DNA of 46,542 bases from assembly GCA_905480575.1 (NCBI GenBank), contig CAJQQZ010000015.1:1-46542 (forward strand), read 5' to 3'. This stretch comes from an uncultured Alphaproteobacteria bacterium. GTDB lineage: Bacteria > Pseudomonadota > Alphaproteobacteria > UBA7985 > CAJQQZ01. A model generated the notes under the pieces. It was not told where the DNA came from, ran no database searches, and saw nothing but the letters and a program-made list of their open reading frames with translations. Below, piece after piece: positions 20,199 through 40,175 of this stretch. The translations under genes were made by a program, and so were the position numbers. How positions within the stretch are numbered: position 1 is the first letter of the stretch; the number at the start of each line of letters is the position of its first letter.

Positions 20199-20452
20199 CT
20201 ATTATTGATGAGTCGTACAATTTGTCAATGACTTTGAGACTTTTCAATTATTATTAGAATAAACTGATGAAGCGTGTGTAAAGTCACATACAAAAACTTG
20301 TGAATGAGCCAAAGTGAGGGCCTTTCCAGAGTTATTTGGTGAGTGTTTAGCAATAAGCCATCAGCTGATGGGGAAACCGGCAAGGGAATTGACAGTGAAT
20401 GAACATCACGTTTTCTCGGTTGAAGGCTAAAGAGAAAAGGAAACCCGATCTC

Positions 20453-21286
20453 ATGTTACTAAAAAAATTTCGACTAGCGATAATCGTACTGTTTTCAGTT
20501 GCGATGTTACCAACCATAGTATTTGCGCAGGCATGGGTCGCGCGCCATGGCATGACCTCTGCACAATACCAAAGTGAATTTAATAAGTATGTCGGTCAAG
20601 GTTACCGCCTGACAGATGTGAGTGGTTATGGTGTCAAAGGCACAGCCTATTATGCGGCCATTTGGGAAAAGACCGGTGGTCCATCATGGGTTGCGCGACA
20701 CGGTATGACGTCTTCACAATATCAAAGCGAATTTAATAAGTATGTTGGACAAGGTTATCGTCTGACAGATGTGAGTGGCTATGGTGTCAAAGGCAAGACC
20801 TATTATGCGGCTATCTGGGAAAAGACCGGCGGTCCATCATGGGTTGCGCGCCATGGCATGACTTCTGCGCAATATCAAAGTGAATTTAATAAGTATGTTG
20901 GACAAGGCTACCGTCTGACAAAGGTGAGCGGCTATGGTGTCAGGGGCAAGGCCTATTATGCGGCTATCTGGGTGAAGACTGGTGGTCCATCATGGGTTGC
21001 TCGCCATGGCATGACGTCTGCACAATACCAAAGTGAATTTAATAAGTATGTCGGGCAAGGTTATCGCCTGACAGATGTGAGTGGTTATGGTGTCAGGGGC
21101 ACGATCTACTACGCGGCTATCTGGGTGAAGATTGGTGGTCCGCGATGGGTTGCGCGTCACGGTATGACCTCTGCGCAATATCAAAGCGAATTTGATAAGT
21201 ACGTTGGTCAAGGTTACCGTCTGACCGAAGTAAGTGGTTATGGGGTCAAAGGCAGAGACTACTATGCGGCTATCTGGGTGAAGTAA
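20453..21286 (+). CDS. Secreted protein with five BTRD1-like tandem repeats
   Basis: Exported protein made almost entirely of five 51-residue repeats. I begin it at ATG 20453 because MLLKKFRLAIIVLFSVAMLPTIVFAQA is a classical signal peptide with cleavage after the Ala-Gln-Ala region, and AAGGAAA lies upstream. ATG 20399 would add an 18-residue basic lead. Each repeat reads W-V-A-R-H-G-M-T-S-x-Q-Y-Q-S-E-F-x-K-Y-V-G-Q-G-Y-R-L-T-x-V-S-G-Y-G-V-(K/R)-G ... Y-Y-A-A-I-W. This fits the bacterial tandem repeat domain 1 family (PF17660-like), which also occurs fused to serine hydrolases in other proteins. No enzymatic domain is present here. The function is unknown; extracellular binding or a matrix role is possible. 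It is divergent from the mutasome operon. Confidence 0.75.
   Translation: MLLKKFRLAIIVLFSVAMLPTIVFAQAWVARHGMTSAQYQSEFNKYVGQGYRLTDVSGYGVKGTAYYAAIWEKTGGPSWVARHGMTSSQYQSEFNKYVGQGYRLTDVSGYGVKGKTYYAAIWEKTGGPSWVARHGMTSAQYQSEFNKYVGQGYRLTKVSGYGVRGKAYYAAIWVKTGGPSWVARHGMTSAQYQSEFNKYVGQGYRLTDVSGYGVRGTIYYAAIWVKIGGPRWVARHGMTSAQYQSEFDKYVGQGYRLTEVSGYGVKGRDYYAAIWVK
20534..21283 (+). repeat. Five tandem 153-bp coding repeats
   Basis: Units begin at 20534, 20687, 20840, 20993 and 21146, each exactly 153 bp apart, and the last lacks the Gly-Gly-Pro linker. Conservation is high at both protein and DNA level (for example AATTTAATAAGTATGT recurs in units 1-4), with substitutions mainly at third positions. This indicates recent expansion or gene conversion. 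Confidence 0.92.
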
Positions 21287-26045: not shown

Positions 26046-26876
26046 TTAAGTTGGAACTCGTCGGTCCTTAACCACCGTGATCCTATTCATACAGCGATAG
26101 TGTGGCAGGTAATCAGCAACTGCATAGTGTTGCGTACAACGATTGTCCCACATCGCGACGGAGCCTTTACGCCAAGTGAAACGCAGCTGATATTCTGGGC
26201 GATTGATATGATCCAGCAGGTAATTCAATAAGCGGCGGCTTTCTCGTGCTGTTACACCGACAATGTGAGAGGTGAAGCCTTCATTGACATAGAGGAATTT
26301 GCGCCTTGAAGCCGGGTGGGTTTGCACGACTGGATGGATAGCACTGCCAAAACGTTGGTGGGCGGCTGTCACTTTTTCGCCGGTCGTTTCATTGGCTGCA
26401 AAGTTATTGCGGAAATCCCCCATGTCGTGAACTGCGGTCATGCCAGACAAATGATTTTTCATATCTAAGGGCAGGGCATCGTAAGCAGCGGCCATTGAGG
26501 CCCAAAGGGTATCACCGCCGCATTCTGGAACTTCACGTGCTACCAGAATTGAGGCAAAGGGTGGCTCTTGTTTGAAGGTGAGGTCTGTGTGCCAACCGTC
26601 TGTGTCAGGTGGATTGTTAGCATCGTTGGCCAGCTCAACGATACGGTCAAAACCATCGACATGTTTGTAGATCGGATGCGGTTGATCGAGTTCGCCAAAG
26701 GACTGTGCAAAAGCAAGATGCCTTTCAGGCGAGATGTCTTGATCACGGAAGAAGATAGCCTCGTGTTTAACCAAAGCCTCGTAAATGGCGTTCTCTTGAG
26801 CTGTGCTCAATGGTTGGCCAAGATCGAGACCTGTAATCTCTGCGCCGATTGCCGGTGTTAACGCACGGATTTGCAT
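26046..26876 (-). CDS. TauD/TfdA family Fe(II)/2-oxoglutarate dioxygenase
   Basis: A 276-residue non-haem iron oxygenase that hydroxylates small substrates such as taurine or alkyl sulfates, releasing the heteroatom group. Iron ligands are His96 and Asp98 (WHTDLTF) and His250 (DNRCTQHYAVADY), and Arg261 or the following Arg residues bind 2-oxoglutarate. LGQPLSTAQENAIYEALVKHEAIFFRDQ (19-46) is the usual N-terminal signature. The substrate cannot be told from the sequence; taurine is only one option. It lies 72 bases downstream of the LysR gene on the same strand, so LysR may control it, and converges with the PanB-like gene. Confidence 0.85.
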   Translation of the reverse strand: MQIRALTPAIGAEITGLDLGQPLSTAQENAIYEALVKHEAIFFRDQDISPERHLAFAQSFGELDQPHPIYKHVDGFDRIVELANDANNPPDTDGWHTDLTFKQEPPFASILVAREVPECGGDTLWASMAAAYDALPLDMKNHLSGMTAVHDMGDFRNNFAANETTGEKVTAAHQRFGSAIHPVVQTHPASRRKFLYVNEGFTSHIVGVTARESRRLLNYLLDHINRPEYQLRFTWRKGSVAMWDNRCTQHYAVADYLPHYRCMNRITVVKDRRVPT

Positions 26877-26948
26877 GGTAAGTTACTCAACAGCTGTTAA
26901 ACTCACGTCTATGGCAATGCGGGAAACCCGTGCTTCGTGCAAGAAAAT

Positions 26949-27851
26949 TCATCCATTGATTTCTTCTTGCAGCAATTGAATGAAGACTTCTGTGATGGAG
27001 GAACGCCGCAGACCTCGCTTTGTTACTATTTCTATGTTGGTGCTCATACTATGACTCTGCGGTAACAAGGATTGCATCAAACCCAACTTTGTCCAACGAG
27101 AAGCATAGTGAACCGGTAGGTAGCCAACATAGCGACCAGACAAAATCAAAAAAGCAATGCCTTCTATTTGATGCGCTTGTGCGGTCGAAGGCAGATTAGC
27201 GGTTAAGGGAGCTACTTGCTGTTCATCCAAGTAAGCACGGCGTACTAGATCGGTGTTCCTGAGGTCTTCCGGCTGTATGTTGCTTGCTCCAAACAAAGGG
27301 TGCCCTTTGCCACAAAACAATTCTAAGGGATCTTCTTGGATTGGCTCATAAAACAGCCCAGGTTTATGGCGATGGAACACGCCGACCCCCAACGCGATCC
27401 TGCCATCTAACACCGCATGCTCAATATCATCAGGGGCTAGGGAATGGATATCAATCGTTACTTCCGGTGCATCCTCTTTGAAGAGAGCAAGCGCGCGGTC
27501 CAATGGCCCCGGCTGATCGGCGATCCAGTTGTCGATGACTGCCAGGCTTAACTGGCCGGTCAACTGGTCTTTGGTTGCCGCCACACTATCCTGGAATTCG
27601 TCAACGGCAGAAAAGAGACTGTTCGCTGCTCGAAAAACTGCCTGCCCACGATTAGTAAGCTGAAAGCCGCCTCTGCCTCTTGAGCAAAGCCTAAGTCCCA
27701 ACCTGGTCTCTAGTTGGGAAATTTGCCGACTGATCGTCGAAGTTGACACATTCAAACGCACCTGTGCAGCAGAGAAACCACCAGCTTCAACCACAGAAAC
27801 GAAGACTTCCAAAAGATGCAAGTCAGCTTTGGATAGTTTGTTAAGAGACAT
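26949..27851 (-). CDS. LysR family transcriptional regulator
   Basis: A 300-residue regulator. The N-terminal winged helix-turn-helix (about 1-60) reads LHLLEVFVSVVEAGGFSAAQVRLNVSTSTISRQISQLETRLGLRLCSR, followed by a periplasmic-binding-protein-like effector domain (about 90-295). I place the start at the ATG ending at 27851 (MSLNKLSK); a GTG at 27863 would add four residues inside the operator. It is divergent from the dimethylargininase-like gene across a short region containing a 24-bp dyad, the standard LysR arrangement. It probably senses a substrate of that hydrolase or importer and may also control the tauD-like gene downstream of it. Confidence 0.9.
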   Translation of the reverse strand: MSLNKLSKADLHLLEVFVSVVEAGGFSAAQVRLNVSTSTISRQISQLETRLGLRLCSRGRGGFQLTNRGQAVFRAANSLFSAVDEFQDSVAATKDQLTGQLSLAVIDNWIADQPGPLDRALALFKEDAPEVTIDIHSLAPDDIEHAVLDGRIALGVGVFHRHKPGLFYEPIQEDPLELFCGKGHPLFGASNIQPEDLRNTDLVRRAYLDEQQVAPLTANLPSTAQAHQIEGIAFLILSGRYVGYLPVHYASRWTKLGLMQSLLPQSHSMSTNIEIVTKRGLRRSSITEVFIQLLQEEING

Positions 27852-27863
27852 AGCTCGGCACAC

Positions 27864-27887
27864 TAACTTGTTAAGAAATACAAGTTA
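27864..27887. promoter_or_regulatory. LysR-type operator dyad
   Basis: TAACTTGT (27864-27871), 8-bp spacer TAAGAAAT, ACAAGTTA (27880-27887). The arms are exact inverted repeats with AT-rich centre, lying 12 bases before the lysR start and 77 before the divergent hydrolase start. A T-N-A dyad of this size between divergent genes is where a LysR protein would bind. Confidence 0.72.
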
Positions 27888-27964
27888 ACATGACAAAGTT
27901 GCTATTTAACTCAACATATTTTCTCGCTAGCCTGGAATCAATTGATGAAACCAAGAGGTCAGAA

Positions 27965-28843
27965 ATGCTTGAAAAAAAGTGGGGCATTAACAATGACTAT
28001 GCACCTTTGTCGGATGTACTCCTCGGGAAACCAGAATATTTCAAATGGGTAGAAGCCGGTCCTTTAATCGGGCGAACTTTGGCCAACGCGCATAAAACGG
28101 GTGTGAAGTTTGATTTGCAGACCGCCATGGCACAGCATGCTGAGATGGTGTCCATCTACGAAGAAAATGGTGTGAAGTGTCACTATCTCGAAGCCGATGA
28201 AGTTCTGCATCGGAATTTCTTTGCCCGTGATTCCTCTGCCATGACGCCTTGGGGCGCTCTGATTTGCCATATGCAGCTCAAGGTCAGACGCGCCGACTAC
28301 GTGACGGTCATCAAGTACTATCAGGAAAACAACATTCCAATCTGGAACTTCGCGACTGCGGGGCACTTTGAAGGCGGGGATTTTGTTATCCTTGAGCCTG
28401 GTAAAGTGTTGATTGGATATTGCGGTGAGCGCTCAGAAAAAGAAGGGTCCGAGCAGGTTGCTGATTTTGTCCGCAAAGAAGGCTGGGAAGCTGTGACTGC
28501 TCCAATCAGTCGCGAATTCGTTCATATGGACGGTCTTGTCGTACCGCTGGACGAGAAACTGTTGGTGGCTTGCGTTGACGCGTTGGAGCCCTGGGTTGTT
28601 GATCAGCTCAAAGATTGGGGCTTCTCATTCGTTGACGTACCTTACCGCGAAGCCAAGAACTTAGGTGTTAACCTAGTGGCCTTGGGCAACGGTAAAGTAC
28701 TGTCTATGAAAGGCGCGACGGAGCTTAATGAAAAGATGCGAGCTTTGGGCTACGAGGTTTATGACCCCGATATGTCCATGTTCACACTTGGTGGTGGTGG
28801 AGTCCATTGCCTTTGCCAAGCCCTTTGCAGAGAAGAGGTTTGA
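27965..28843 (+). CDS. Dimethylargininase/amidinotransferase-family hydrolase
   Basis: A 292-residue protein of the guanidino-group-modifying enzyme superfamily (DDAH, arginine deiminase, amidinotransferase). Active-site parts visible are FEGGDFVILE (Glu/Asp of the propeller), FVHMDGLVVPL (catalytic His) and the C-terminal GGGGVHCLCQAL with nucleophile Cys. The closest description is N(G),N(G)-dimethylarginine dimethylaminohydrolase, which gives citrulline and dimethylamine, but other guanidino substrates are possible. An ATG at 27890 opens a longer frame. ATG 27965 is preferred because AAGAGG lies six bases before it, the N-terminus WGINNDYAPLSDVLLGKP matches the family start, and the longer form would leave no room for a promoter. 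The ABC importer genes follow in the same direction. Confidence 0.8.
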   Translation: MLEKKWGINNDYAPLSDVLLGKPEYFKWVEAGPLIGRTLANAHKTGVKFDLQTAMAQHAEMVSIYEENGVKCHYLEADEVLHRNFFARDSSAMTPWGALICHMQLKVRRADYVTVIKYYQENNIPIWNFATAGHFEGGDFVILEPGKVLIGYCGERSEKEGSEQVADFVRKEGWEAVTAPISREFVHMDGLVVPLDEKLLVACVDALEPWVVDQLKDWGFSFVDVPYREAKNLGVNLVALGNGKVLSMKGATELNEKMRALGYEVYDPDMSMFTLGGGGVHCLCQALCREEV

Positions 28844-28960
28844 TTCAAACCGCGACATTCTGTCGATTTATCTGGTCAACAGGAGAATCCGCTGTAGGGT
28901 TAAGGCGTTTAGAGGGCCTCTGGAGAGGTTCATGAATGTAAAATACAGGGAGTTACCTAA

Positions 28961-29914
28961 ATGAAAAAAGTACTTAAAAGTCTTGCTGGTGCAGCCTTGC
29001 TGTCATCAGTTGCCATGCCAGCGCTTGCCGCTGATGTTGTAATCGGTGTGCCAAACTGGCCATCTGTTCGCGTAACAGCGCACGTTTTGAAGGTCGTTAT
29101 GGAAGATAACCTCGGTCTTGAGGTCGAGTTGCAGAACGGTTCAAACCCAGTTGTGTTCGAAGGTATGGACGCTGGTTCCATGCACGTTCACCCAGAGGTC
29201 TGGCTGCCAAACCAAACCAACCTAAACAACAAGTATGTTCAGGAAAAGGGCACAGTGCGCCAGAATCCTAATGGTGTTGCTGGCGACCAGGCTATGTGCG
29301 TAACGAAAGGCACGCAAGAACGCACAGGTATCACAGATCTGTCTCAACTGACGGATCCTGATATGGCTGCCAACTTTGACACAGACGGTGATGGCAAAGG
29401 CGAAATCTGGATTGGTGCTGCTGGTTGGGCGTCAACCAACATCGAGAAAATCCGCGCTAAGTCCTACGGCTATGACGAGACCATGAACCTCAAGGAAATG
29501 GACGAAACTCTTGCCTTGGCTGAAGTTGACAACGCCGTTGCACAGAACGAAGACATCGTTTTCTTCTGTTACACACCACACCATATGTTTGCGCTGCATG
29601 ATCTTGTGATCTTGAAAGAGCCTGCACACGATTCTGCTAGTTGGAACGTTATCCAGCCTACAGACGATCCTGAGTGGCTTGAGAAGTCAGAAGCTGGTTC
29701 CGCTTGGAGCACAGCTTACTTGCACATTCACTATGCAACAGGTCTAGAAGAGTCAAACCCAGCTGCAGCTTCAATGCTGTCTAAGGTTTCTCTAGACACA
29801 GCTGCTGTTTCTGCAATGACCTATGCTCTGGTTGTTGAGAAGCAGGATCCTGCTGAATTCGCTGCAAAGTGGGTTTCAGAGAACGGCGCTACAGTTGATG
29901 CTTGGTTGCAGTAA
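28961..29914 (+). CDS. Betaine-type ABC transporter substrate-binding protein (OpuAC family)
   Basis: A 317-residue periplasmic binding protein. The signal peptide MKKVLKSLAGAALLSSVAMPALAA is followed by DVVIGVPNWPSVRVTAHVLKVVMEDNLG, and typical OpuAC stretches occur at FEGMDAGSMHVHPEVWLPNQ (about 67-86), IWIGAAGWASTNIEK (about 148-162) and IVFFCYTPHHMFALHDLVIL. Trp residues in NW, VW and GW fit an aromatic cage for a quaternary ammonium or methylated guanidino group. DTDGDGKGEIW looks like a Ca-binding-type acidic loop. It lies 117 bases after the hydrolase with no terminator seen, and is followed by a stable hairpin before the ATPase. Confidence 0.88.
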   Translation: MKKVLKSLAGAALLSSVAMPALAADVVIGVPNWPSVRVTAHVLKVVMEDNLGLEVELQNGSNPVVFEGMDAGSMHVHPEVWLPNQTNLNNKYVQEKGTVRQNPNGVAGDQAMCVTKGTQERTGITDLSQLTDPDMAANFDTDGDGKGEIWIGAAGWASTNIEKIRAKSYGYDETMNLKEMDETLALAEVDNAVAQNEDIVFFCYTPHHMFALHDLVILKEPAHDSASWNVIQPTDDPEWLEKSEAGSAWSTAYLHIHYATGLEESNPAAASMLSKVSLDTAAVSAMTYALVVEKQDPAEFAAKWVSENGATVDAWLQ

Positions 29915-29930
29915 ACTTGGCTGACTAATG

Positions 29931-29963
29931 TAACGGCGGTGCCTCTCTGGGGTGCCGCCGTTA
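29931..29963 (+). promoter_or_regulatory. Intercistronic hairpin after the binding-protein gene
   Basis: TAACGGCGG (29931-29939) pairs with CCGCCGTTA (29955-29963), and the inner TGCC/GGTG extends it to about 13 bp with a 7-nt loop. No T-run follows. Such stem-loops between binding-protein and permease genes often protect the upstream mRNA so that the binding protein is made in excess; partial termination is the alternative. Confidence 0.72.
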
Positions 29964-30016
29964 TGCGTTTAAGAACAATCAAAAAGCTAAACTAGTTTAA
30001 TTGGGGAGACGGCCGG

Positions 30017-31066
30017 GTGAGCGAAGACGTCATCATTCTAGAGAATGTCTGGAAGATTTTCGGCGATCGTGCTGACGAAGCAATGAAAGCCATCGAAGAA
30101 CGTGGGTTGGGCAAACCGGAAGTACTGGCTGAATTTGCTTGTGTGGTCGGAATCGCCGACTGTTCATTTACCGTCAAGCGTGGCGAGATTTTCTGCGTTA
30201 TGGGACTGTCCGGCTCAGGGAAGTCGACAATGGTTCGACACCTCAATCGGTTGATTGAACCGACTGCTGGCAAAATCTCTGTCCTTGGCCAAGATATGAT
30301 GGCTCTCAGCGGTGACAAGCTTCGCGAGATGCGCGCTATGCACCTCGGCATGGTTTTTCAACACATGGCTTTGCTGCCCCACCGCACGGTTCGAGACAAT
30401 GTCGCCTTTCCGTTGCAAGTACGCGGAGAGCCCAAATCGAAACGTTGGGAAGTCTCACAGCGCTGCCTAGAAATGGTGAATCTTGATGGCTATGAAGATC
30501 GCTTCCCAAGAGAACTATCTGGCGGCATGCAACAGCGTGTCGGCCTTGCACGAGCCCTGGCCTCTGATCCAGAAGTTCTGCTCATGGATGAACCTTTCTC
30601 AGCACTGGATCCACTTATCCGTCGTCAGTTGCAAGATCAGTTCATGGCGCTGTCAGCAGAATTGAACAAAACAACAGTTTTTATCACTCATGATCTTGAC
30701 GAAGCGATCCGTATTGGAAACCGCATCGCAATTATGAAAGATGGGCGTATCGTTCAAATCGGTACACCAGAAGACATCGTGACTAAGCCGGCGGATGACT
30801 ATGTCCGGGACTTTGTCGAAGGCATATCCAGATTAAAATTGGTTTTTGCCCATACAATTATGGAAGATATCAAGTCTTACAAAGTTGCCAGAGGCGAGGA
30901 CTTGAGCAAGTCACCTCGTGTCTCGCACGATACCGATTTGGATCACTTGATCGATATCACAACTGAAACCGACCAACCGATCGTTATTCAAGACGACGAC
31001 GGCAAGGATGTTGGTGTGATCAATAAGACGACCCTGCTGAAGGGCATTCAAGGAGGCAAGGCATGA
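30017..31066 (+). CDS. Betaine-type ABC transporter ATPase (ProV/OpuAA-like)
   Basis: A 349-residue ATP-binding subunit of an importer. Walker A is GLSGSGKST (about 67-75), the Q-loop MVFQHMALLPH (about 112-122), the signature LSGGMQQR (about 167-174), Walker B EVLLMDEPFSALDP (about 187-200) and switch His in FITHDLDEA. A C-terminal CBS-like regulatory part (about 280-345) matches ProV-type subunits that sense ionic strength. The start is GTG 30017 with GGGGAG eight bases upstream. It overlaps the permease gene by four bases (ATGA). Confidence 0.92.
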   Translation: MSEDVIILENVWKIFGDRADEAMKAIEERGLGKPEVLAEFACVVGIADCSFTVKRGEIFCVMGLSGSGKSTMVRHLNRLIEPTAGKISVLGQDMMALSGDKLREMRAMHLGMVFQHMALLPHRTVRDNVAFPLQVRGEPKSKRWEVSQRCLEMVNLDGYEDRFPRELSGGMQQRVGLARALASDPEVLLMDEPFSALDPLIRRQLQDQFMALSAELNKTTVFITHDLDEAIRIGNRIAIMKDGRIVQIGTPEDIVTKPADDYVRDFVEGISRLKLVFAHTIMEDIKSYKVARGEDLSKSPRVSHDTDLDHLIDITTETDQPIVIQDDDGKDVGVINKTTLLKGIQGGKA

Positions 31067-32640
31067 GTACCGATACAGGCCTAGAGCTGGGCCCTAAAGC
31101 TCTTGATTCCTCGGTTGGCGAATTCGTAAAAACCAATGAGGCTTATTACTCCAAAGAATTTGCAAAGATTCAGGGTACCACCGGTTTCCCTTGGTCATGG
31201 AACACCATGGCCGCCGTCTGCGGTCCTCTGTGGGGAGCCTTTAGAGGTGCCTGGGGGTTCTTCTGGATTTTCCTCGTTCTAGAGCTTTTTGCCTTCGTTC
31301 AACTTGGTCGAGGCATCTGGGGCGAATTGGGTGCTGACCAGATTGCGAAGGTAGAGCGACTCACTATTAAAATTGCAGAACGTAAACAACAAGCGATTGA
31401 CGCGCTCGCTGCTAGTGATCAAGCTGCGGCTGACTTGGCCGAAAAAATTGCCTCTAATCTAACCAAAGCAGCTGAAAAGGCCCAGGCCGCTGCTGATGCA
31501 GCAGCAGGGGAAGCGATGATGATCCTCGCTGTCGGTGTTTTGCTGCTCATTGCTGTCAAAATCCTAGAGGGATTTTACGCCAACATGTCTTACGAGAAGC
31601 TGTATTTGAAATGGCGGGCGCGCCCTGCCTCTGTTCAAACCGGCCCTCGCAATTCCAGTCTGATATTTGGTGCATTTCTGTTGGTGGCTATTTGGCCATT
31701 AACGCTGTTCCGTTTCACTGTTTCTAATCCAGACGGTGTTCTGGCTAAGCTCACGAACGGATTTATCGGCGAAAGGCTCCCCATTACGGAATTCCCTGTT
31801 GGTAAACAGTATTTTGCCTATTGGGCAAAGAAAGGCGACGTGGCCTTCGAGTGGCTGGCCTTTAAGTTTGGCGACGTTTTCGACGGGGTCACTGCTTCTA
31901 TTCGTGCGGTGTTAGATGGCCTCGAAATCATTCTAATAGAGACGCCGTGGCCTGTTGTGATGATCGTTATCGTCGTTATGGCCTATCGGTTGGCGGGTAT
32001 TAGGGTGGCGATATTTACAGCAGCAGCTCTCGCATACCTTGCCTTTATGGGACTGTGGGAACTCTCAATGATTACTGTGGCGCTCATTGGTGCCGGTGCC
32101 GCGCTCTGTATAATTTTCGGCATTCCTTTGGGTATCTGGTTTGGTAAGAGTCGACGTGCTTTTGCATTCGCTGAACCAATTCTCGATTTCATGCAGACCA
32201 TGCCAGCCTTTGTTTACCTCATTCCGATTATTGCATTCTTCGGCACTGGTAAGCCGCCAGGCGTGTTGGCGACAATCATCTTTGCCATGCCACCCGTCAT
32301 TCGTTTGACCGGTCTTGGTATGCGTGGCGTACCTGAAGCAACGAAGGAGGCTGCTATTGCTTTCGGTTGTTCGAAGAGACAGCTCTTGTTCAATGTTGAA
32401 CTGCCCTTGGCCATGCCTTCGATCATGACAGGGATCAACCAAACTATCCTGATGTCTTTGTCGATGGTTGTGATTGCGTCTCTCATTGGCGCTGAAGGTC
32501 TTGGTGCCTTGATCCTGGAAGCTCTGCAATATGCTGCAAAAGGCCAAGGTCTGCTTGGTGGTTTGGCTATTCTGTTCTGTGCCATGGTGATCGATCGTAT
32601 CGCTCAGGGCATGTACAAAAAGAAAATGGCTGGAGACTAA
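31063..32640 (+). CDS. Betaine-type ABC permease with an extended N-terminal region
   Basis: A 525-residue membrane subunit. The C-terminal part (about 300-525) is the ordinary ProW/OpuAB permease: FMQTMPAFVYLIPIIAFFGTGKPPGVLATIIFAMPPVIRLTGLGMRGVPEATKEAAIAFG is the substrate-path and EAA-loop region, then NQTILMSLSMVVIASLIGAEGLG. The first 190 residues are unusual. A soluble lead containing SWNTMAAVCGPLWGAFRGAWGFFWIFLVLELF resembles a DUF2628-like membrane domain. A charged, Ala-rich helical stretch (about 90-150) likely to form a coiled coil follows, then a further membrane helix and ANMSYEKLYLKWRARP. Ordinary ProW proteins are about 280-350 residues. Overlap with the ATPase gene by ATGA and a terminator after it mark the operon end. 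Confidence 0.85.
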   Translation: MSTDTGLELGPKALDSSVGEFVKTNEAYYSKEFAKIQGTTGFPWSWNTMAAVCGPLWGAFRGAWGFFWIFLVLELFAFVQLGRGIWGELGADQIAKVERLTIKIAERKQQAIDALAASDQAAADLAEKIASNLTKAAEKAQAAADAAAGEAMMILAVGVLLLIAVKILEGFYANMSYEKLYLKWRARPASVQTGPRNSSLIFGAFLLVAIWPLTLFRFTVSNPDGVLAKLTNGFIGERLPITEFPVGKQYFAYWAKKGDVAFEWLAFKFGDVFDGVTASIRAVLDGLEIILIETPWPVVMIVIVVMAYRLAGIRVAIFTAAALAYLAFMGLWELSMITVALIGAGAALCIIFGIPLGIWFGKSRRAFAFAEPILDFMQTMPAFVYLIPIIAFFGTGKPPGVLATIIFAMPPVIRLTGLGMRGVPEATKEAAIAFGCSKRQLLFNVELPLAMPSIMTGINQTILMSLSMVVIASLIGAEGLGALILEALQYAAKGQGLLGGLAILFCAMVIDRIAQGMYKKKMAGD

Positions 32641-33075: not shown

Positions 33076-34102
33076 ACAAATAGCACCACGGCCTTCATCC
33101 TTTGACCAAATCAAATCTTGGCTGTTGACGCCCTGGGCTCTGATTGTCGCCATCCCTCTTTTGGTCTGGGTTCTAGATCCAGGTGAGTTTAGCAACATAA
33201 TGAACGCAGCCGTCGGCTCTTTCTTCGGGACATTGCCCTACATCTTGTTTGCGGTTTTGCTGATCGCTTGGCTAAAGGCGGCAGGAGCGGAAGCGATGAT
33301 CGCTAATGCCTTTAAGGGCCGTGAGGTCAGAATGATTTTCCTGGCCGCAGCCTTTGGTGGATTGGCCCCATTTTGCTCTTGTGAGGTCATTCCCTTCATC
33401 GCAGGTCTCCTGGCTCTGGGAGCACCTTTGTCTGCTGTCATGGCTTTTTGGTTATCTTCGCCTCTGATCGATCCGCCAACTCTGTTGATTACGGCTTCAG
33501 CGTTGGGTTGGCCTTTTGCGGTGGGTAAGGCTGTGTCAGCAGTTGCCTTGGGCTTGTTCGGTGGCTTTGCTATTAAGACCATGATGAGCGCTGGTTTGTT
33601 CAAGGAACCCTTGAAAGAAGTAAGTGGCAGCGGTTGTGGTTGTGGGCCATCGCCTTTCAGCGGTAAGCCGCAGTGGGCGGTCTGGAAAGACATGGACCGT
33701 CGCCAAACATTCAAATCTGAATTCATCTCAAACGCGTTGTTTTTGATCAAATGGTTGGCACTTGCTTATGTGTTGCAAGGCGTTCTTATCACTTACGTTC
33801 CAGCTGAACTCATTGCTTCAGCCGTTGGTGGCGAGGGGATCGGCTCAATTGCAATTGCAGCCATTGTCGGTATGCCTGCTTACTTAAACTCCTATGTGGC
33901 TCCGCCTCTGTTGGCCGGGCTGATGGAGCAGGGTATGGGCAGTGGCGCGGCTATGGCCTTCATGATCACCGGAGCGATCTCTTGTATCCCAGCTATGGCT
34001 GCAGTCTGGTCATTGGTTAAGACGCAAGTATTCTTCAGTTACGTTGGATTAGGTATTGCTGGTGCGATCATCTCTGGCATCATATTCCAGATGATCATCT
34101 GA
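33062..34102 (+). CDS. ArsP-like permease (COG0701, UPF0718/DUF318)
   Basis: A 346-residue membrane protein with about eight to ten hydrophobic helices. The conserved GGLAPFCSCEVIPFIAGLLALGAPL (about 101-125) contains the C-x-C pair shared by this family, and a soluble loop carries CGCG (about 192-195). A second repeat has the GMPAYLNSYVAPPLLAGLMEQGMG segment. ArsP members export trivalent organoarsenicals; other family members are uncharacterised. The ArsR partner immediately upstream supports a metalloid or thiol-reactive-compound efflux role (inference). ATG 33062 is chosen; GTG 33050 is a four-codon-longer option. It overlaps the convergent DUF3237 gene by eight bases. Confidence 0.83.
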   Translation: MSTNEQIAPRPSSFDQIKSWLLTPWALIVAIPLLVWVLDPGEFSNIMNAAVGSFFGTLPYILFAVLLIAWLKAAGAEAMIANAFKGREVRMIFLAAAFGGLAPFCSCEVIPFIAGLLALGAPLSAVMAFWLSSPLIDPPTLLITASALGWPFAVGKAVSAVALGLFGGFAIKTMMSAGLFKEPLKEVSGSGCGCGPSPFSGKPQWAVWKDMDRRQTFKSEFISNALFLIKWLALAYVLQGVLITYVPAELIASAVGGEGIGSIAIAAIVGMPAYLNSYVAPPLLAGLMEQGMGSGAAMAFMITGAISCIPAMAAVWSLVKTQVFFSYVGLGIAGAIISGIIFQMII

Positions 34103-34559
34103 CGCAATAAAGAGAAATCTCGACAGAGCTTGCGTTGCGGGCTCCGCTACCTACAAACAACAGGCGATTAACCCAGGAATAGCGGGGATCGCCTGTTTCC
34201 ATTTTTGCATGGGTGCGCATGTAATAAAGTGCCGGATCCACTGGTTCACCACGTCCAACAGCAGCAATAACCTCAGCCGGACCATGACGGAAACCGTAGT
34301 TGATAATCTCAATCAAGGCACCGTCATCGGTCTCGAAGGCATAGCGCGTATCGAGTTCAGCAACGTCATCGCTGAATATCGTTTGCCAATCCGCACCTAG
34401 ATTGAGGATGGTCCCATTAATCGCGGGCCCTTTGACTGTCCCACCAATGATCGGGATAATGCGCCTTTTACCAGCACGTCCGAGACCCATTTCGCGTATG
34501 GGACCAAGTTCAACGCGGAGGTCACAGGCGTGTTCCAGTTTTGGTTCCATCAGTTGCAT
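34095..34559 (-). CDS. DUF3237 family protein
   Basis: A 154-residue protein matching DUF3237: LRVELGPIREMGLGRAGKRRIIPIIGGTVKGPAINGTILNLGADWQ (about 14-59), TRYAFETDDGALIEIINYGFRHGP (about 71-94) and the closing YSWVNRLLFVGSGAR. It is a small beta-barrel-like protein often found beside catabolic and dehydrogenase genes; no activity is established to my knowledge. It ends a minus-strand run and starts three bases after the GhrA-like gene's stop, so they are probably one transcript. Confidence 0.8.
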   Translation of the reverse strand: MQLMEPKLEHACDLRVELGPIREMGLGRAGKRRIIPIIGGTVKGPAINGTILNLGADWQTIFSDDVAELDTRYAFETDDGALIEIINYGFRHGPAEVIAAVGRGEPVDPALYYMRTHAKMETGDPRYSWVNRLLFVGSGARNASSVEISLYCVR

Positions 34560-34562
34560 CGC

Positions 34563-35498
34563 TTAATACCCTTTTGAACGGTCAACTTCGTTGAGCAGAG
34601 ATTGGCCGTTCATGAGCCGTTTGTAGTTCTCCGCGACATCAATGAGCCCTTCGTCGGCATGCCAACCAGAGACATGTGGCGTGATTGTTATTTTGGGATG
34701 AGCCCAAAAGGGGTGATTGCTGGGCAAGGGTTCTGTGCGGACAACGTCTAGGACAGCGGCTTCTATAGGGCCGTTCGCCAAAGCGTCAATCAAATCGTCT
34801 TCAACCATCAAATCACCACGACCTGCGTTGATTAAGATCGATCCTACCTTCATTGCTGAGAAGAGACCCAGATCAAAGAGATCTCTGGTCTTCTCAGTCG
34901 ATGGCAATATAGAAACCACATAATCGCAATCACCGAGTAGCGGTTTCAAGGCTTCAGCGCCATGTCGGCAATCAACGCCTTCAATAGATTTTGTTGATTG
35001 GCTCCATCCCAAAACTCTAAACCCAAGGCTCGCAAAAGTCTTGGCGGCTAGGCTGCCGATATGACCTAGCCCAAGAACACCAACAGTCGTATGAGGTGCG
35101 CGCTTTGGTGGTATAGGCTGCCAGCTCGATTGCATTTGGTTTTGGGCATGGAACAAGAGATTACGTTGGCGCTGGAGCACAAAAGCAACCGCATACTCTG
35201 CGATTTCTTGCGCTGGGCCGAGCGGTTTAAGACGTGTCAATTTCACTTCAGCTGGTAAATCTGGATCACTGACCATGGTATCAACACCCGCGCCAAGCTT
35301 TTGGACAAGCCGTAGATTGGGCAGTTGTTTGGCAACGCCGGGGTGTAGTTTAACCGCAGCCACCATTGTCACGTCGTCATAAGTACGCCCCTCATTGCCA
35401 GCATAAATTTGGACACCAGGCAGTTTGGGTGCAAGAAGCGCCGCCAGATCCTCTTCCTTCATCCAAGATGGATCACGAATATCGATGAGTAGAGCCAT
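34563..35498 (-). CDS. D-2-hydroxyacid dehydrogenase, glyoxylate/hydroxypyruvate reductase A-like
   Basis: A 311-residue NAD(P)H-dependent 2-hydroxyacid dehydrogenase of the GhrA branch. The nucleotide site is VGVLGLGHIGSLAAKTF (about 138-154). The catalytic triad is Arg in INAGRGD (about 226-232), Glu in VRTEPLP (about 255-261) and His in ITPHVSGWH (about 277-285), the W-H ending being typical of GhrA. The enzyme would reduce glyoxylate or hydroxypyruvate in the cytosol. It lies between DUF3237 and a ureidoglycolate-lyase-like cupin, and ureidoglycolate cleavage yields glyoxylate, so the two enzymes could act in sequence (inference). Confidence 0.86.
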   Translation of the reverse strand: MALLIDIRDPSWMKEEDLAALLAPKLPGVQIYAGNEGRTYDDVTMVAAVKLHPGVAKQLPNLRLVQKLGAGVDTMVSDPDLPAEVKLTRLKPLGPAQEIAEYAVAFVLQRQRNLLFHAQNQMQSSWQPIPPKRAPHTTVGVLGLGHIGSLAAKTFASLGFRVLGWSQSTKSIEGVDCRHGAEALKPLLGDCDYVVSILPSTEKTRDLFDLGLFSAMKVGSILINAGRGDLMVEDDLIDALANGPIEAAVLDVVRTEPLPSNHPFWAHPKITITPHVSGWHADEGLIDVAENYKRLMNGQSLLNEVDRSKGY

Positions 35499-35507
35499 GG
35501 CGCTGTC

Positions 35508-36176
35508 CTATTCGGGTGGGTTGCTTTGAAGTGGAACAGCGAGATAGACACCGAACTCCTTGCCAACGTCACAGCTCACTCGGGCATGGACCTTACCTTG
35601 GCGATCCAAGAAACGTTGACTGTTCTCAACAGGGAAAATTCCTTCATGCCAAATATTGGGGTGAATGTAGAGGCCTTGACTGCCATCACACCAGAAAGCC
35701 ACCACTTTATCAGGGGTCAGGTTATCTCCGGGCGGCGCGGCTGGGATGACAAAAGGTTTGTCATCTAGTGGATAGAACAACTGACCACCGTCGGGGTGGT
35801 AATTCATATGCCACAACAAGACTTTGTCACGTGGGCCAGTGGCTTTTTCCGCGGAGGCTTGCTGTGGATCTTGTGACCAACCAAGAACATAATGGCCGTT
35901 AACCGCTTCATTCGCGCCGTAAAGAATGTCGCCGCGCCAATCACCATGGAAAACACCCTCTATCCAGCCTGCTTCATCGCCTGTGCCTTCATCGATTGGA
36001 CGCCAGCCTTGTGCTGGCCATCGGACGATTTCGATATCAAAGGTCTCAGGATCGTCGACCAAGCAGCCATAGCCCTTAACGGAATCAGGAGTGGCTTTGA
36101 TCAAGGGAACTTTATGCAGAGGAAGCGAAGGTTTTTCGGAGGCCTCAAAGATGTAGGCTGGTTCAGATTTTTCCAT
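35508..36176 (-). CDS. Ureidoglycolate lyase-like cupin protein
   Basis: A 222-residue protein of the ureidoglycolate lyase (AllA) superfamily. The features are VDDPETFDIEIVRWPAQGWRPIDEGTGDEAGWIEGVFHGDWRGDILYGANEAVNGHYVLGWS (about 41-102) and the later GLYIHPNIWHEGIFPV (about 168-183), whose His residues and Glu suit a cupin active site. AllA itself is about 160 residues, so this longer form may use a different but similar ureido or carbamoyl substrate. If it cleaves ureidoglycolate, glyoxylate and urea result. It ends nine bases before the reductase gene and starts six bases after the GDCCVxC gene, forming a compact minus-strand operon. Confidence 0.74.
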   Translation of the reverse strand: MEKSEPAYIFEASEKPSLPLHKVPLIKATPDSVKGYGCLVDDPETFDIEIVRWPAQGWRPIDEGTGDEAGWIEGVFHGDWRGDILYGANEAVNGHYVLGWSQDPQQASAEKATGPRDKVLLWHMNYHPDGGQLFYPLDDKPFVIPAAPPGDNLTPDKVVAFWCDGSQGLYIHPNIWHEGIFPVENSQRFLDRQGKVHARVSCDVGKEFGVYLAVPLQSNPPE

Positions 36177-36182
36177 TGGTGT

Positions 36183-36386
36183 TCAACAGCAGGTGTTGCC
36201 TTCTTGGATCGGAGGGCAGGGAACGGTACCGTAAGAGCAGTAGACACAGCAGTCGCCAGGCTTTGGCTGAAGCACTTCTTTGCAACCTTTACAGTCGTAG
36301 AACCACTGACATGCATCAGTCGGCATGGTTTCAGTTTCAACATGGCCGCACAAAGGGCAAGTGAGGGTGGATTGTAATTCTGTCAA
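36183..36386 (-). CDS. GDCCVxC domain protein (Cys form)
   Basis: A 67-residue cysteine-rich protein with eleven Cys. Cys10-x2-Cys13 and Cys32-x2-Cys35 look like a zinc ribbon, and the family signature GDCCVYCSYGTVPCPPIQ spans 44-61. It ends in a Cys-Cys pair. In related proteins one of the GDCC cysteines is replaced by selenocysteine; here both are ordinary cysteines. The family is small and its role is unknown, although a redox or metal-handling function would fit. It starts the minus-strand operon and is divergent from the NylB-like gene (about 60 bases apart). Confidence 0.85.
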   Translation of the reverse strand: MTELQSTLTCPLCGHVETETMPTDACQWFYDCKGCKEVLQPKPGDCCVYCSYGTVPCPPIQEGNTCC

Positions 36387-36447
36387 CGCAAGCTTTCCTT
36401 CCCAGATCTATGGACTATAGTCTCTATCGAAAAATGAAGGAATGACA

Positions 36448-37635
36448 ATGCCCAATCTTATGTCGCAGTTTCCATCTCCTCCCGAAGAGCAAGTGTCCCT
36501 CGCCAATTGGCGCATGGCCCCTTTCAGTGAATGGGCTTTCCATCATGTTCGGGAAATTGTCGTTTCAGCAGACGTGCCAAACAACCCGAATGACGTTTGG
36601 CAGCTGGAAGAAGATCGGGCCGAATTCTCGACACTGACCATCGAGGGGAAATCCCTAGCTCAGGTTTGCGATGAGACCAAGAATGACGGCTTGGTAATCC
36701 TGCACAAGGGTAAGCTGGTGCACGAGTCCTACGGTCACGGCATGGATGCAGTGACGCCTCACATCTTGATGTCTGTGTCTAAATCAGTACTTGGGTTGCT
36801 CGGCGGAATCCTGGTCAACAAAGGCCTCCTCGACACGGAAGCTTTGTTGACGGACTATATTCCTGAGTTAGAAGAGACAGCCTGGAAGGGTGCGACGGTT
36901 AGAGAAGCTTTGGATATGCGGGTCGGCATCCTTTTTGATGAAGACTACCTCATCACTGAGGGGGCCATCATTGATTATCGCAAAGCGACCAATTGGAACC
37001 CGCTGGAACCAGGTGACGTAGCAACCGATCTCCGGTCTTTCTTTCTGACTTTGACAGATAGAGATGGCCCTCATTCTGGTAAGTTTCACTATGTGTCGCC
37101 AAACACTGATCTTTTGGCGTGGGTCTATGAGCGGGCGTCGGGGCAACGCTATGCTGATTTGTTGAGTAACCTTCTGTGGAGACCCATGGGTGCCGAACGC
37201 TCGGCCTATTTCACTGTTGATCGATTTGGCGCGCCCAGAGCGGCGGGCGGTGTCTGTGTGACGACCCGTGATTTAGCTCGCTTGGGCCAGCTGGTGGTTC
37301 AAGGTGGCAGTCGCGATGGACAGGAAATCATACCAAAGTCTTGGATTGATGACATTACGCTCAACGGCGATCCAGAAGCTTGGCAGCAAGGTGAGTTTGC
37401 TGAGCTTTACCCCGACCTGGACGCTCATTATCGTTCCAAGTGTTATGTTCTTCGCGGTGAAGAGCCCCTGATCTTTGGGCTTGGCATCCACGGTCAGAAT
37501 GTCTTTGCTGACCCGGTCAATGATATCGTGATCGCTAAGCATTCCTGCCAGGCTTTACCGATTGATGATCCGGCTAATGATCTCACGATGAAAATGGTTG
37601 AAGCCGTTCGGAACTTCTTGAAAGCAAGGGGATAG
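36448..37635 (+). CDS. Cytosolic serine hydrolase, beta-lactamase class C / NylB-like
   Basis: A 395-residue penicillin-binding-protein-like hydrolase. The active-site motif SVSKS (S-x-x-K, about 109-113) and Y-x-N-like YVSPNTD (about 213-219) are clear. The third motif is probably HGQ in GLGIHGQNVF near the C-terminus, in place of K-T-G. There is no signal peptide, unlike real beta-lactamases, which points to an esterase or amide hydrolase such as 6-aminohexanoate-dimer hydrolase. ATG 36448 is selected because AAGGA lies six bases before it; ATG 36442 would be too close. It is followed after three bases by the ATC-hydrolase-like gene. Confidence 0.82.
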   Translation: MPNLMSQFPSPPEEQVSLANWRMAPFSEWAFHHVREIVVSADVPNNPNDVWQLEEDRAEFSTLTIEGKSLAQVCDETKNDGLVILHKGKLVHESYGHGMDAVTPHILMSVSKSVLGLLGGILVNKGLLDTEALLTDYIPELEETAWKGATVREALDMRVGILFDEDYLITEGAIIDYRKATNWNPLEPGDVATDLRSFFLTLTDRDGPHSGKFHYVSPNTDLLAWVYERASGQRYADLLSNLLWRPMGAERSAYFTVDRFGAPRAAGGVCVTTRDLARLGQLVVQGGSRDGQEIIPKSWIDDITLNGDPEAWQQGEFAELYPDLDAHYRSKCYVLRGEEPLIFGLGIHGQNVFADPVNDIVIAKHSCQALPIDDPANDLTMKMVEAVRNFLKARG

Positions 37636-37638
37636 GGT

Positions 37639-38115
37639 ATGGCGAAAACCGACCTTCCTATCCTCGAGCAACGACGCATTGAGGCATCCATCATCAAGCC
37701 AATCTATGATGAAATGGTCGAACAGCTAGGTAAAGAGCAGGCAACAGACATTCTTGGGAAAGCAGTCATTAAAGACGCGATAGCACAGGGCCAAGCCTAT
37801 GCGGAGACCCAGGAGCAACCGACAACTTTAGCCTCTTTTCATGCATTGCTGCCACAATGGACAGCCGGTGGCGCTCTTGAAATCGAGATGGTGGAAGAGG
37901 GGGAAGAGAAAATGGCCTACAACGTCACGCGCTGTAGATACTCAGAAATGTACAAAGCCATGGGCATGGGCGACATCGGACACCTGCTGTCTTGTAATCG
38001 CGACGGCTCATTTTGCACGGGCTATAATCCAAATATCAAACTTGAACGCAGCCAAACCATCATGAAAGGCGCTAGTCATTGTGATTTCCGTTTCAGGTGG
38101 GAGGAAGATAAGTGA
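37639..38115 (+). CDS. L-2-amino-thiazoline-4-carboxylic acid hydrolase family protein
   Basis: A 158-residue protein matching the ATC hydrolase family (PF14196). These enzymes open a thiazoline ring to S-carbamoyl-cysteine in cysteine-producing pathways, although most members are uncharacterised. Matching features are the helical N-terminus IKPIYDEMVEQLGKEQATDILGKAVIKDAIAQG and the conserved Cys/His tail: NVTRCRYSEMYKAMGMGDIGHLLSCNRDGSFCTGYNPNIKLERSQTIMKGASHCDFRFRW. The gene is three bases after the NylB-like gene and overlaps the next by four bases (GTGA). Together they look like one translation-coupled unit for breakdown of an amide or thiazoline-type compound (inference). Confidence 0.78.
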   Translation: MAKTDLPILEQRRIEASIIKPIYDEMVEQLGKEQATDILGKAVIKDAIAQGQAYAETQEQPTTLASFHALLPQWTAGGALEIEMVEEGEEKMAYNVTRCRYSEMYKAMGMGDIGHLLSCNRDGSFCTGYNPNIKLERSQTIMKGASHCDFRFRWEEDK

Positions 38116-38606
38116 AGATTGCTGCTCGTACGATAATTTGGGCTGTCCTACTTTTTCTTCCCACGTCTCTACTTCATGCTCAGAAACTCGGAGAAGGGCA
38201 GTTGGTTGCGGCCGAGCAAGAATTTATCGACGGCTGCGACGCTAATGTAAAGTTAATAAGTACTAAACTTTCAGAAAGTGCGGGCTTTCAATTGAACACG
38301 AATCTGCGTTCTTTAGAGTATCTTGATGATTTTGTAACGCGTGTGTTGGCTGGCGAAGATAAAGAAAAGTTGGGATCACTCCCCTCAGTCATTGGATGTT
38401 TTCTCGGCCAAGTTATCATCAGCGAAATCGGTGGCAAATGGATGAAATCTACAGAGTTTGGTTACGCGGTTGAGCTTAAGGGAGGCACAATGGCGTTCCC
38501 ATTTAATACGTCATACGATCATTTGGTAAATGGGCCGGAGGATTCGATCCTTGGATTTTTCAACGCATTTAAAGCGATTTCAGAAAATGGGCTAAAAACG
38601 GATTGA
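38112..38606 (+). CDS. Small exported protein of unknown function
   Basis: Unrecognised 164-residue protein. Signal peptide MKIAARTIIWAVLLFLPTSLLHAQ with likely cleavage after His-Ala. The mature part is mixed helix/strand and has two Cys (about 41 and 97). The GTG start overlaps the previous stop as GTGA, so it is translationally coupled to the cytosolic hydrolases, an odd pairing. No membrane helix other than the signal. It could bind the substrate of that module outside the cytosol, but nothing in the sequence proves it. Confidence 0.62.
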   Translation: MKIAARTIIWAVLLFLPTSLLHAQKLGEGQLVAAEQEFIDGCDANVKLISTKLSESAGFQLNTNLRSLEYLDDFVTRVLAGEDKEKLGSLPSVIGCFLGQVIISEIGGKWMKSTEFGYAVELKGGTMAFPFNTSYDHLVNGPEDSILGFFNAFKAISENGLKTD

Positions 38607-38732: not shown

Positions 38733-40175
38733 ATGGAACAAAAAACCAACTTTTATATCAATGGTCAATGGGTGGCTCCTGCTGCACCTAAGACGATGGG
38801 CGTCATCAACCCTGCAACGGAAGAGGCCTTTGCTCAGATCTCTTTGGGGTCGAAAGCGGATGTCGATGCAGCAGTGGCAGCGGCGAGAGCTGCCTTCGAA
38901 ACCTACAGTGAAACCCCTGTTGAATACCGAATTGAGTTGTTAGAAAAGTTGGCAGAAGTGTATGGCAACCGCTCAGACGAAATGGCGAAGGCGATTTCTT
39001 CTGAAATGGGGGCGCCTATGACTTTGGCGACAACAGCCCAGGCTGCGGCTGGTCGTGGTCATATCAAAGCTTTCATTCGTGCCTTGAAAGAATTCCAGTT
39101 TGAGCAACCTTTCAATGACAAAGGCGAACAGATTGTACACGAAGCCATCGGTGTTTGTGGTTTGATTACCCCTTGGAACTGGCCAATGAATCAGGTGGCC
39201 TTGAAAGTTGCTCCTGCTCTCGGCGTTGGTTGTACGGTTCTGTTGAAGCCAAGTGAGATTGCACCGACTTCTTCAATGTTGTTTGCTGAGTTCATTGATG
39301 AAGCTGGTTTCCCAGCTGGCTCATTCAACTTGGTTAACGGTGACGGTCCTTCCGTCGGTGAAGCCATGTCATCACACCCCGATATTGACATGATGTCTTT
39401 CACAGGCTCGACACGAGCCGGTAAGGCAGTAACGATAGCGGCTGCGGACTCCGTAAAGCGTGTGAGCCTTGAACTCGGTGGTAAGTCGCCAAACATTGTT
39501 TTTGCTGACGCGGATGTTGAACGTGCCGTTAAGACAGGTGTTCTGCACTGTATGAACAACACGGGTCAGTCTTGCAATGCTCCAACCCGTATGTTGGTTG
39601 AACGTTCGGTTTATGACCAGGCGGTTGAAGTTGCTAAAGCGACTGCTGCTAAGATTCAGTCTGGCAATCCTTCTGAAGAAGGTCGCCATATGGGACCTTT
39701 GGTCAGTGAAATGCAATTCAACAAAGTCCAGGGCTTGATTGAAGAAGGCATCAAAGAAGGCGCTAATTTGATCGCCGGTGGTGTGGGGCGCCCAGAAGGG
39801 TTCGAGAAGGGTTACTTCGTTAAGCCGACGATCTTTGCCGACGTGAACAATGATATGACGATTGCTCGCGAAGAGGTCTTTGGCCCTGTTTTGACGATGA
39901 TCCCCTTTGAAGGCGAAGCTGAAGCTATTCAAATTGCCAATGACACCCCTTATGGCCTCGCGGCCTATCTCAGCTCTGGTGATCCTGCTAAAGCCAACCG
40001 TGTCGCTAAAAAGCTTCGTGCCGGCATGGTGATGATCAATGGTGCGAATCGCCCTGCTGGCAGTCCATTTGGCGGCTACAAGCAGTCTGGTAACGGTCGT
40101 GAAGGCGGTAAATGGGGTTTGGAAGACTTCCTCGAAGTCAAAGCTGTTAGCGGTTACGCTCAAGCCGCCGAATAA
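38733..40175 (+). CDS. NAD(P)-dependent aldehyde dehydrogenase
   Basis: A 480-residue ALDH-superfamily enzyme that oxidises aldehydes to acids. ITPWNWPMNQ (about 146-155), the NAD-binding KPSEIAPTSS, FTGSTRAGK (about 221-229), catalytic Glu in LELGGKSPN (about 243-251), nucleophile Cys in GQSCNAPTR (about 274-282) and EEVFGPVL (about 375-382) are all intact. The length matches the family. The aldehyde cannot be specified. It has its own leader (126 bases) and terminator, so it may be separate from the upstream hydrolase trio. Its aldehyde could nevertheless come from that locus. Confidence 0.93.
   Translation: MEQKTNFYINGQWVAPAAPKTMGVINPATEEAFAQISLGSKADVDAAVAAARAAFETYSETPVEYRIELLEKLAEVYGNRSDEMAKAISSEMGAPMTLATTAQAAAGRGHIKAFIRALKEFQFEQPFNDKGEQIVHEAIGVCGLITPWNWPMNQVALKVAPALGVGCTVLLKPSEIAPTSSMLFAEFIDEAGFPAGSFNLVNGDGPSVGEAMSSHPDIDMMSFTGSTRAGKAVTIAAADSVKRVSLELGGKSPNIVFADADVERAVKTGVLHCMNNTGQSCNAPTRMLVERSVYDQAVEVAKATAAKIQSGNPSEEGRHMGPLVSEMQFNKVQGLIEEGIKEGANLIAGGVGRPEGFEKGYFVKPTIFADVNNDMTIAREEVFGPVLTMIPFEGEAEAIQIANDTPYGLAAYLSSGDPAKANRVAKKLRAGMVMINGANRPAGSPFGGYKQSGNGREGGKWGLEDFLEVKAVSGYAQAAE

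Follow-up and report, generated by a model that had tools for sequence, protein, structure and literature searches.

Do three tightly packed genes in the genome of an uncultured alphaproteobacterium encode consecutive steps of a pathway, or do they form a transcription unit particular to one species? The genes lie on the plus strand of a 46,542-nucleotide stretch of DNA, the whole of which we call the window. They encode P0001, a NylB-like serine hydrolase of 395 amino acids (36448..37635), recognised by a PF00144 profile match, solved relatives and an active-site alignment; P0002, a protein of the PF14196 (ATC-hydrolase) family of 158 amino acids (37639..38115), recognised by its Pfam profile, alignment and predicted fold; and P0003, a near-orphan of 164 amino acids (38112..38606), defined by its open reading frame and a weak profile match. 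A preliminary description of this DNA had proposed that the first two act in turn on an N,S-heterocycle or lactam, with the third as an exported partner.

The layout given there was borne out by the ORF coordinates: 3 nt separate P0001 from P0002, and P0002 and P0003 overlap by 4 nt (GTGA), with the GTG start codon of P0003 inside the overlap with the P0002 stop. A second in-frame ATG for P0001 is present at 36442, directly after a GAAGGA motif; by eye, 36448 is the better-spaced start relative to that motif. The tight spacing of the trio is ordinary for this window, as 12 of its 32 co-directional neighbour pairs sit no more than 10 nt apart, and scans for promoters and terminators gave no clear surplus of sites over shuffled sequences. 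An aldehyde dehydrogenase gene begins at 38733, 126 nt past P0003, and its product falls under every NCBIfam cut-off shown. On the other side, a divergent run on the minus strand (34095-36387) encodes zinc-ribbon-like, ureidoglycolate-lyase-like, 2-hydroxyacid dehydrogenase (GhrA-like) and DUF3237 proteins. Elsewhere in the window are genes for a TauD-like dioxygenase, a LysR regulator, a dimethylargininase-like protein and a glycine-betaine-type ABC transporter, which are consecutive (26046-32640; some names assigned by eye), and a protein that consists of five almost identical repeats, each some 50 residues long (20399-21286; WVARHGMTSAQYQSEFNKYVGQGYRL...).

The naming of P0001 as NylB-like held up. 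It matches PF00144 with an E-value of 5.6e-27 in a profile search, and its closest solved structures by sequence are 6-aminohexanoate-dimer hydrolases (E 9.5e-65); no signal peptide was recognised by eye. The similarity to NylB and NylB' (both PF00144) extends over almost the full length, and S109, K112, Y215 and Y167 occupy the aligned positions of NylB Ser112, Lys115, Tyr215 and Tyr170, so that the Ser-x-x-Lys motif and both tyrosines are retained. All 24 aligned rows (P0001 and 23 homologues) have the catalytic Ser, Lys and Tyr215. P0001 differs from NylB, however, in carrying Arg (R178) for Asp181 and Ala (A266) for Asn266, two residues reported to be important for hydrolysis of the linear dimer by NylB (PMC7019077). 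Because of these replacements, we describe P0001 as NylB-like and not as a nylon-dimer hydrolase, an activity that its sequence does not establish; the same replacements weaken the direction towards 6-aminohexanoate taken in the preliminary description. Arg at position 178 is shared by P0001 and 18 of the 23 homologues, the other five having Asp (including L076, in which the alignment is gapped at this position). A large NylB-like subfamily has Arg where NylB has Asp181, and calling its members 6-aminohexanoate-dimer hydrolases is probably a misnomer because of that substitution. At L079, L081 and L083, two NylB-like genes are paired in tandem, one with Arg and the other with Asp at the position of NylB Asp181; the two are 1 nt apart in L079 and L083, and the listed ORFs overlap in L081. 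At L067, L068 and L070, a class IV aminotransferase gene adjoins the NylB-like gene on the opposite strand.

P0002 is the sole PF14196 match in the 4.03-Mb source genome and scores far over the gathering cut-off (135.4 bits against 28.1; E 3.4e-39; residues 11-152), in agreement with its earlier naming as ATC-hydrolase-like. C99, C119, D122, R137, T140, G144, C148 and F150 are invariant in all 119 aligned rows, for which the 80 named rows were retrieved by patterns covering C99, D122 and C126 and the 40 class rows without patterns. Although a sequence search found no relative of P0002 in the PDB, a structure model built from an alignment of 20 sequences reached a mean pLDDT of 92.8. Its top Foldseek matches were the phenol-sensor domains of MopR and PoxR and TRAPP subunits (E from 2.8e-5), and VIA-align placed it with Bet3 (2pwn; Z 10.2, rmsd 4.1, 142 aligned) and MopR (5kbg_B; Z 9.1, rmsd 4.1, 144 aligned), ahead of H-NOX and V4R proteins. 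P0002 is predicted to adopt a fold of the V4R/H-NOX/MopR type. That PF14196 is related to these domains has already been published, in the form of a methanogen domain linked to PF14196, V4R and HNOB via a conserved cysteine cluster (PMC5847659). Unlike the MopR/PoxR/DmpR sensor domains, V4R and H-NOX, P0002 is a stand-alone protein of 158 amino acids, with identities of at most 16% in the VIA-align rows. The characterised point of reference is the Pseudomonas ATC hydrolase pathway, described as leading from ATC to N- or S-carbamoyl-cysteine and on to cysteine (PMC10821248); P0002 resembles it by family profile, the one level at which the two were compared, but has a NylB-like neighbour and no adjoining M20-type amidohydrolase.

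P0003 offers few clues. Its N terminus looks like a signal peptide by eye, which is as far as the earlier claim of an exported third protein could be upheld. The sole profile match, to DUF6278 (PF19794), scores 23.3 bits, under the gathering cut-off of 26.4, and no PDB relative had a meaningful E-value. Matches at E ≤ 0.01 occurred in 5 of 385 class genomes, including the source genome, with those in the others at 2.8e-5 or above. There was no match in 10 relatives from the genus and order, and one weak match (33% identity) among plasmids. A single-sequence structure model was too poor for use (mean pLDDT 48). Both the GC content (43.8) and GC3 (41.2) of the gene are below those of neighbouring genes.

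To assess the conservation of the trio, we searched genomes of the same class and phylum. P0002 matched 40 of the 385 genomes in the class sample and 20 of the 378 in the phylum sample; P0001 matched 143 of 385 (E ≤ 0.001) and 91 of 378 (E ≤ 1e-20), respectively, with up to four P0001 candidates per genome scored in the class sample and up to five in the phylum sample; the phylum sample was searched with P0001 and P0002, leaving out P0003. Among the matches listed, from the 40 class and 20 phylum genomes, a P0001 match lay within 20 kb of a P0002 match in the source genome only, and the next nearest pair was 21 kb apart. As this genome-wide scoring took few candidates per genome, at E ≤ 1e-20 in the phylum sample, tblastn of 120 loci of P0002 relatives provided a stronger test. 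None of these loci (80 named, covering 5 kb per side where the contig permits, and 40 from the class; at least five are duplicated records with identical rows in the tree) had a relative of P0001 or P0003 near the P0002 relative. Conversely, the surroundings of P0001 homologues at 20 loci yielded no P0002 relative, and P0001 relatives of 54-62% identity occur without an adjoining P0002. No second trio was recovered from the same taxonomic order, searched with DNA and with P0002 and P0003, or from the class, the phylum or the 80 named loci, and plasmid searches with single proteins, with gene neighbourhoods taken from two plasmid records, gave no second case. The operon of NylB-like, PF14196 and exported-protein genes is not conserved in the genomes searched, an outcome that the preliminary description had itself named as counting against its proposal. 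In the open-licence literature, titles and abstract openings contained no description of a NylB-PF14196 operon.

We also inspected the corresponding region in G001, another species of the genus. Its P0001 relative (77% identity over the first 136 amino acids) adjoins the 2-hydroxyacid dehydrogenase gene, the ureidoglycolate-lyase-like gene being absent between the two, and is cut short by the contig end; the aldehyde dehydrogenase gene lies on a contig that starts with the tail of a different ORF, not P0003. P0002 and P0003 were not found in this genome, but loss of P0002 from G001 is not proven, given a completeness of 84% and contig breaks within this region.

The neighbourhoods of PF14196 genes in relatives revealed a different and recurrent arrangement. 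In 20 of the 80 named loci (L154, L158, L165, L166, L168, L172, L174-L177, L182, L187-L189, L193, L195 and L198-L201), an M20 amidohydrolase gene lies downstream of PF14196 in the same orientation, with 7-50 nt between the tblastn matches. A gene for an FAD oxidoreductase of the DAO type precedes PF14196 by 10-68 nt in all 20 and in one further locus, and in 9 of the 80 a Cds1-like L-cysteine desulfhydrase gene comes next after M20. A representative M20 protein scored 341 bits against TIGR01891, above its cut-off; the Cds1-like protein reached 538 against a cut-off of 600, and the DAO protein was nearest to L-pipecolate oxidase, far under the cut-off. ABC transporter genes, of branched-chain type and partly named by eye, are frequent near these PF14196 genes, and an annotated Sagittula plasmid carries, consecutively, genes for an ABC transporter, a class V PLP enzyme, an FAD oxidoreductase, an ATC hydrolase and an M20 aminoacylase. 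Titles and abstract openings of open-licence papers likewise yielded no account of the DAO-PF14196-M20 cluster. The cluster would fit a route in which a thiazolidine is oxidised, its ring opened to give an acyl-cysteine, the acyl group removed and the cysteine desulfurated; cysteine is a fitting end product because genes for an FAD oxidoreductase, M20 and a Cds1-like protein surround PF14196 in the relatives. We regard these alphaproteobacterial clusters, with or without the Cds1-like gene, as a candidate thiazolidine/thiazoline-to-cysteine route; bacteria have been reported to convert thiazolidine-4-carboxylate (timonacic) to N-formylcysteine (PMC9814826).

P0002 shares with these clusters its family and its tight packing with an amidohydrolase gene, but it belongs to another clade, the amidohydrolase is of another family than P0001, and the order is reversed: the ring hydrolase gene lies upstream of the amidohydrolase gene in the clusters and downstream of it in the trio, where the gene after P0002 is P0003 and not M20. 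In a quick tree of 119 of 121 rows (two with a stop codon in the matched stretch were left out), the M20-linked rows form a starred group of 23 and P0002 falls in a separate starred group of 28, whose neighbours, judged from ten chosen proteins, are varied and include a response regulator, an AbrB-type protein, HutD and an M24 peptidase. None of the 40 class loci showed an M20 neighbour, and a Cds1-like gene turned up at one of them. The source genome carries four M20 homologues of 45-53% identity on other contigs, and no Cds1-like gene resembling the operon type was found in it (best 25% identity). Stepwise ring opening and amide hydrolysis, as envisaged in the preliminary description, finds support in the M20-linked branch of PF14196 but not for an upstream NylB-like partner.

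The reading that we favour, with moderate confidence, is that the trio is one recently assembled transcription unit of this species and not a conserved pathway. P0001, P0002 and P0003 would be co-transcribed, and the common transcript may mean shared regulation only. With one of the conserved cysteines in its V4R-type fold, P0002 would open a cysteine-derived, thiazoline-like ring; the product would be a cysteine acylated (carbamoylated or formylated) on N or S, from which an amidohydrolase encoded elsewhere, most likely one of the four M20 homologues, would release cysteine. Carrying the function of the M20-linked clade over to P0002 is a guess, because that clade is not its own. P0001 may cut another amide or ester, with R178 suggesting a substrate bearing an acid group, and P0003 would act outside the cytoplasm and take no part in the chemistry. 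Against this reading stand the gaps in the G001 assembly and the distance of the best Cds1-like match in the source genome; moreover, packing of the kind associated with translational coupling often means shared function. P0001 might then deacylate, in place of M20, the N-acyl or N-carbamoyl cysteine that P0002 makes from a thiazoline. The 3-nt spacing, the amidohydrolase gene directly after PF14196 in a quarter of the named loci, the complete NylB-type catalytic centre and an R178 that could hold the cysteine carboxylate all speak for such consecutive steps; we nevertheless consider them unlikely, given the absence of the pair from all 120 loci, the P0001 relatives that lack an adjoining P0002 and the M20 homologues already in the source genome. 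Less likely still would be the fuller version, in which a NylB-type hydrolase replaced M20 as the partner of PF14196 in a two-step salvage of cysteine from thiazolines, with Arg178 as the carboxylate anchor.

Two further explanations were weighed. P0002 might be a ligand-binding protein instead of an enzyme, like the MopR, PoxR and DmpR sensor domains of the same fold, as its best Foldseek matches, its Z values against Bet3 and MopR and the published relation of PF14196 to V4R and HNOB (PMC5847659) would allow. A common fold shows no function, however, and the Z values are middling; PF14196 takes its name from a characterised hydrolase, and relatives of P0002 sit between two enzymes in metabolic gene clusters, making a sensor a rather improbable reading. 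A nylon-oligomer or lactam route, with P0001 acting on 6-aminohexanoate dimers and the aldehyde dehydrogenase oxidising adipate semialdehyde, draws on the match of P0001 to NylB structures and on the dehydrogenase gene that follows the trio. We rejected it as highly improbable: P0001 lacks both NylB Asp181 and Asn266, no aminotransferase gene was seen by eye beside P0001 in the ORF list of the window, and the dehydrogenase gene is set apart by 126 nt and its product scores under all cut-offs shown.

The trio itself, a grouping of known families that is specific to one lineage, is of minor importance, and the PF14196-M20 cluster is of more interest. Through the recurrent combination of an FAD oxidoreductase, PF14196 and M20, in some cases with a cysteine desulfhydrase, PF14196, a family that has received little study, would become open to tests with thiazolidines and thiazolines as substrates.
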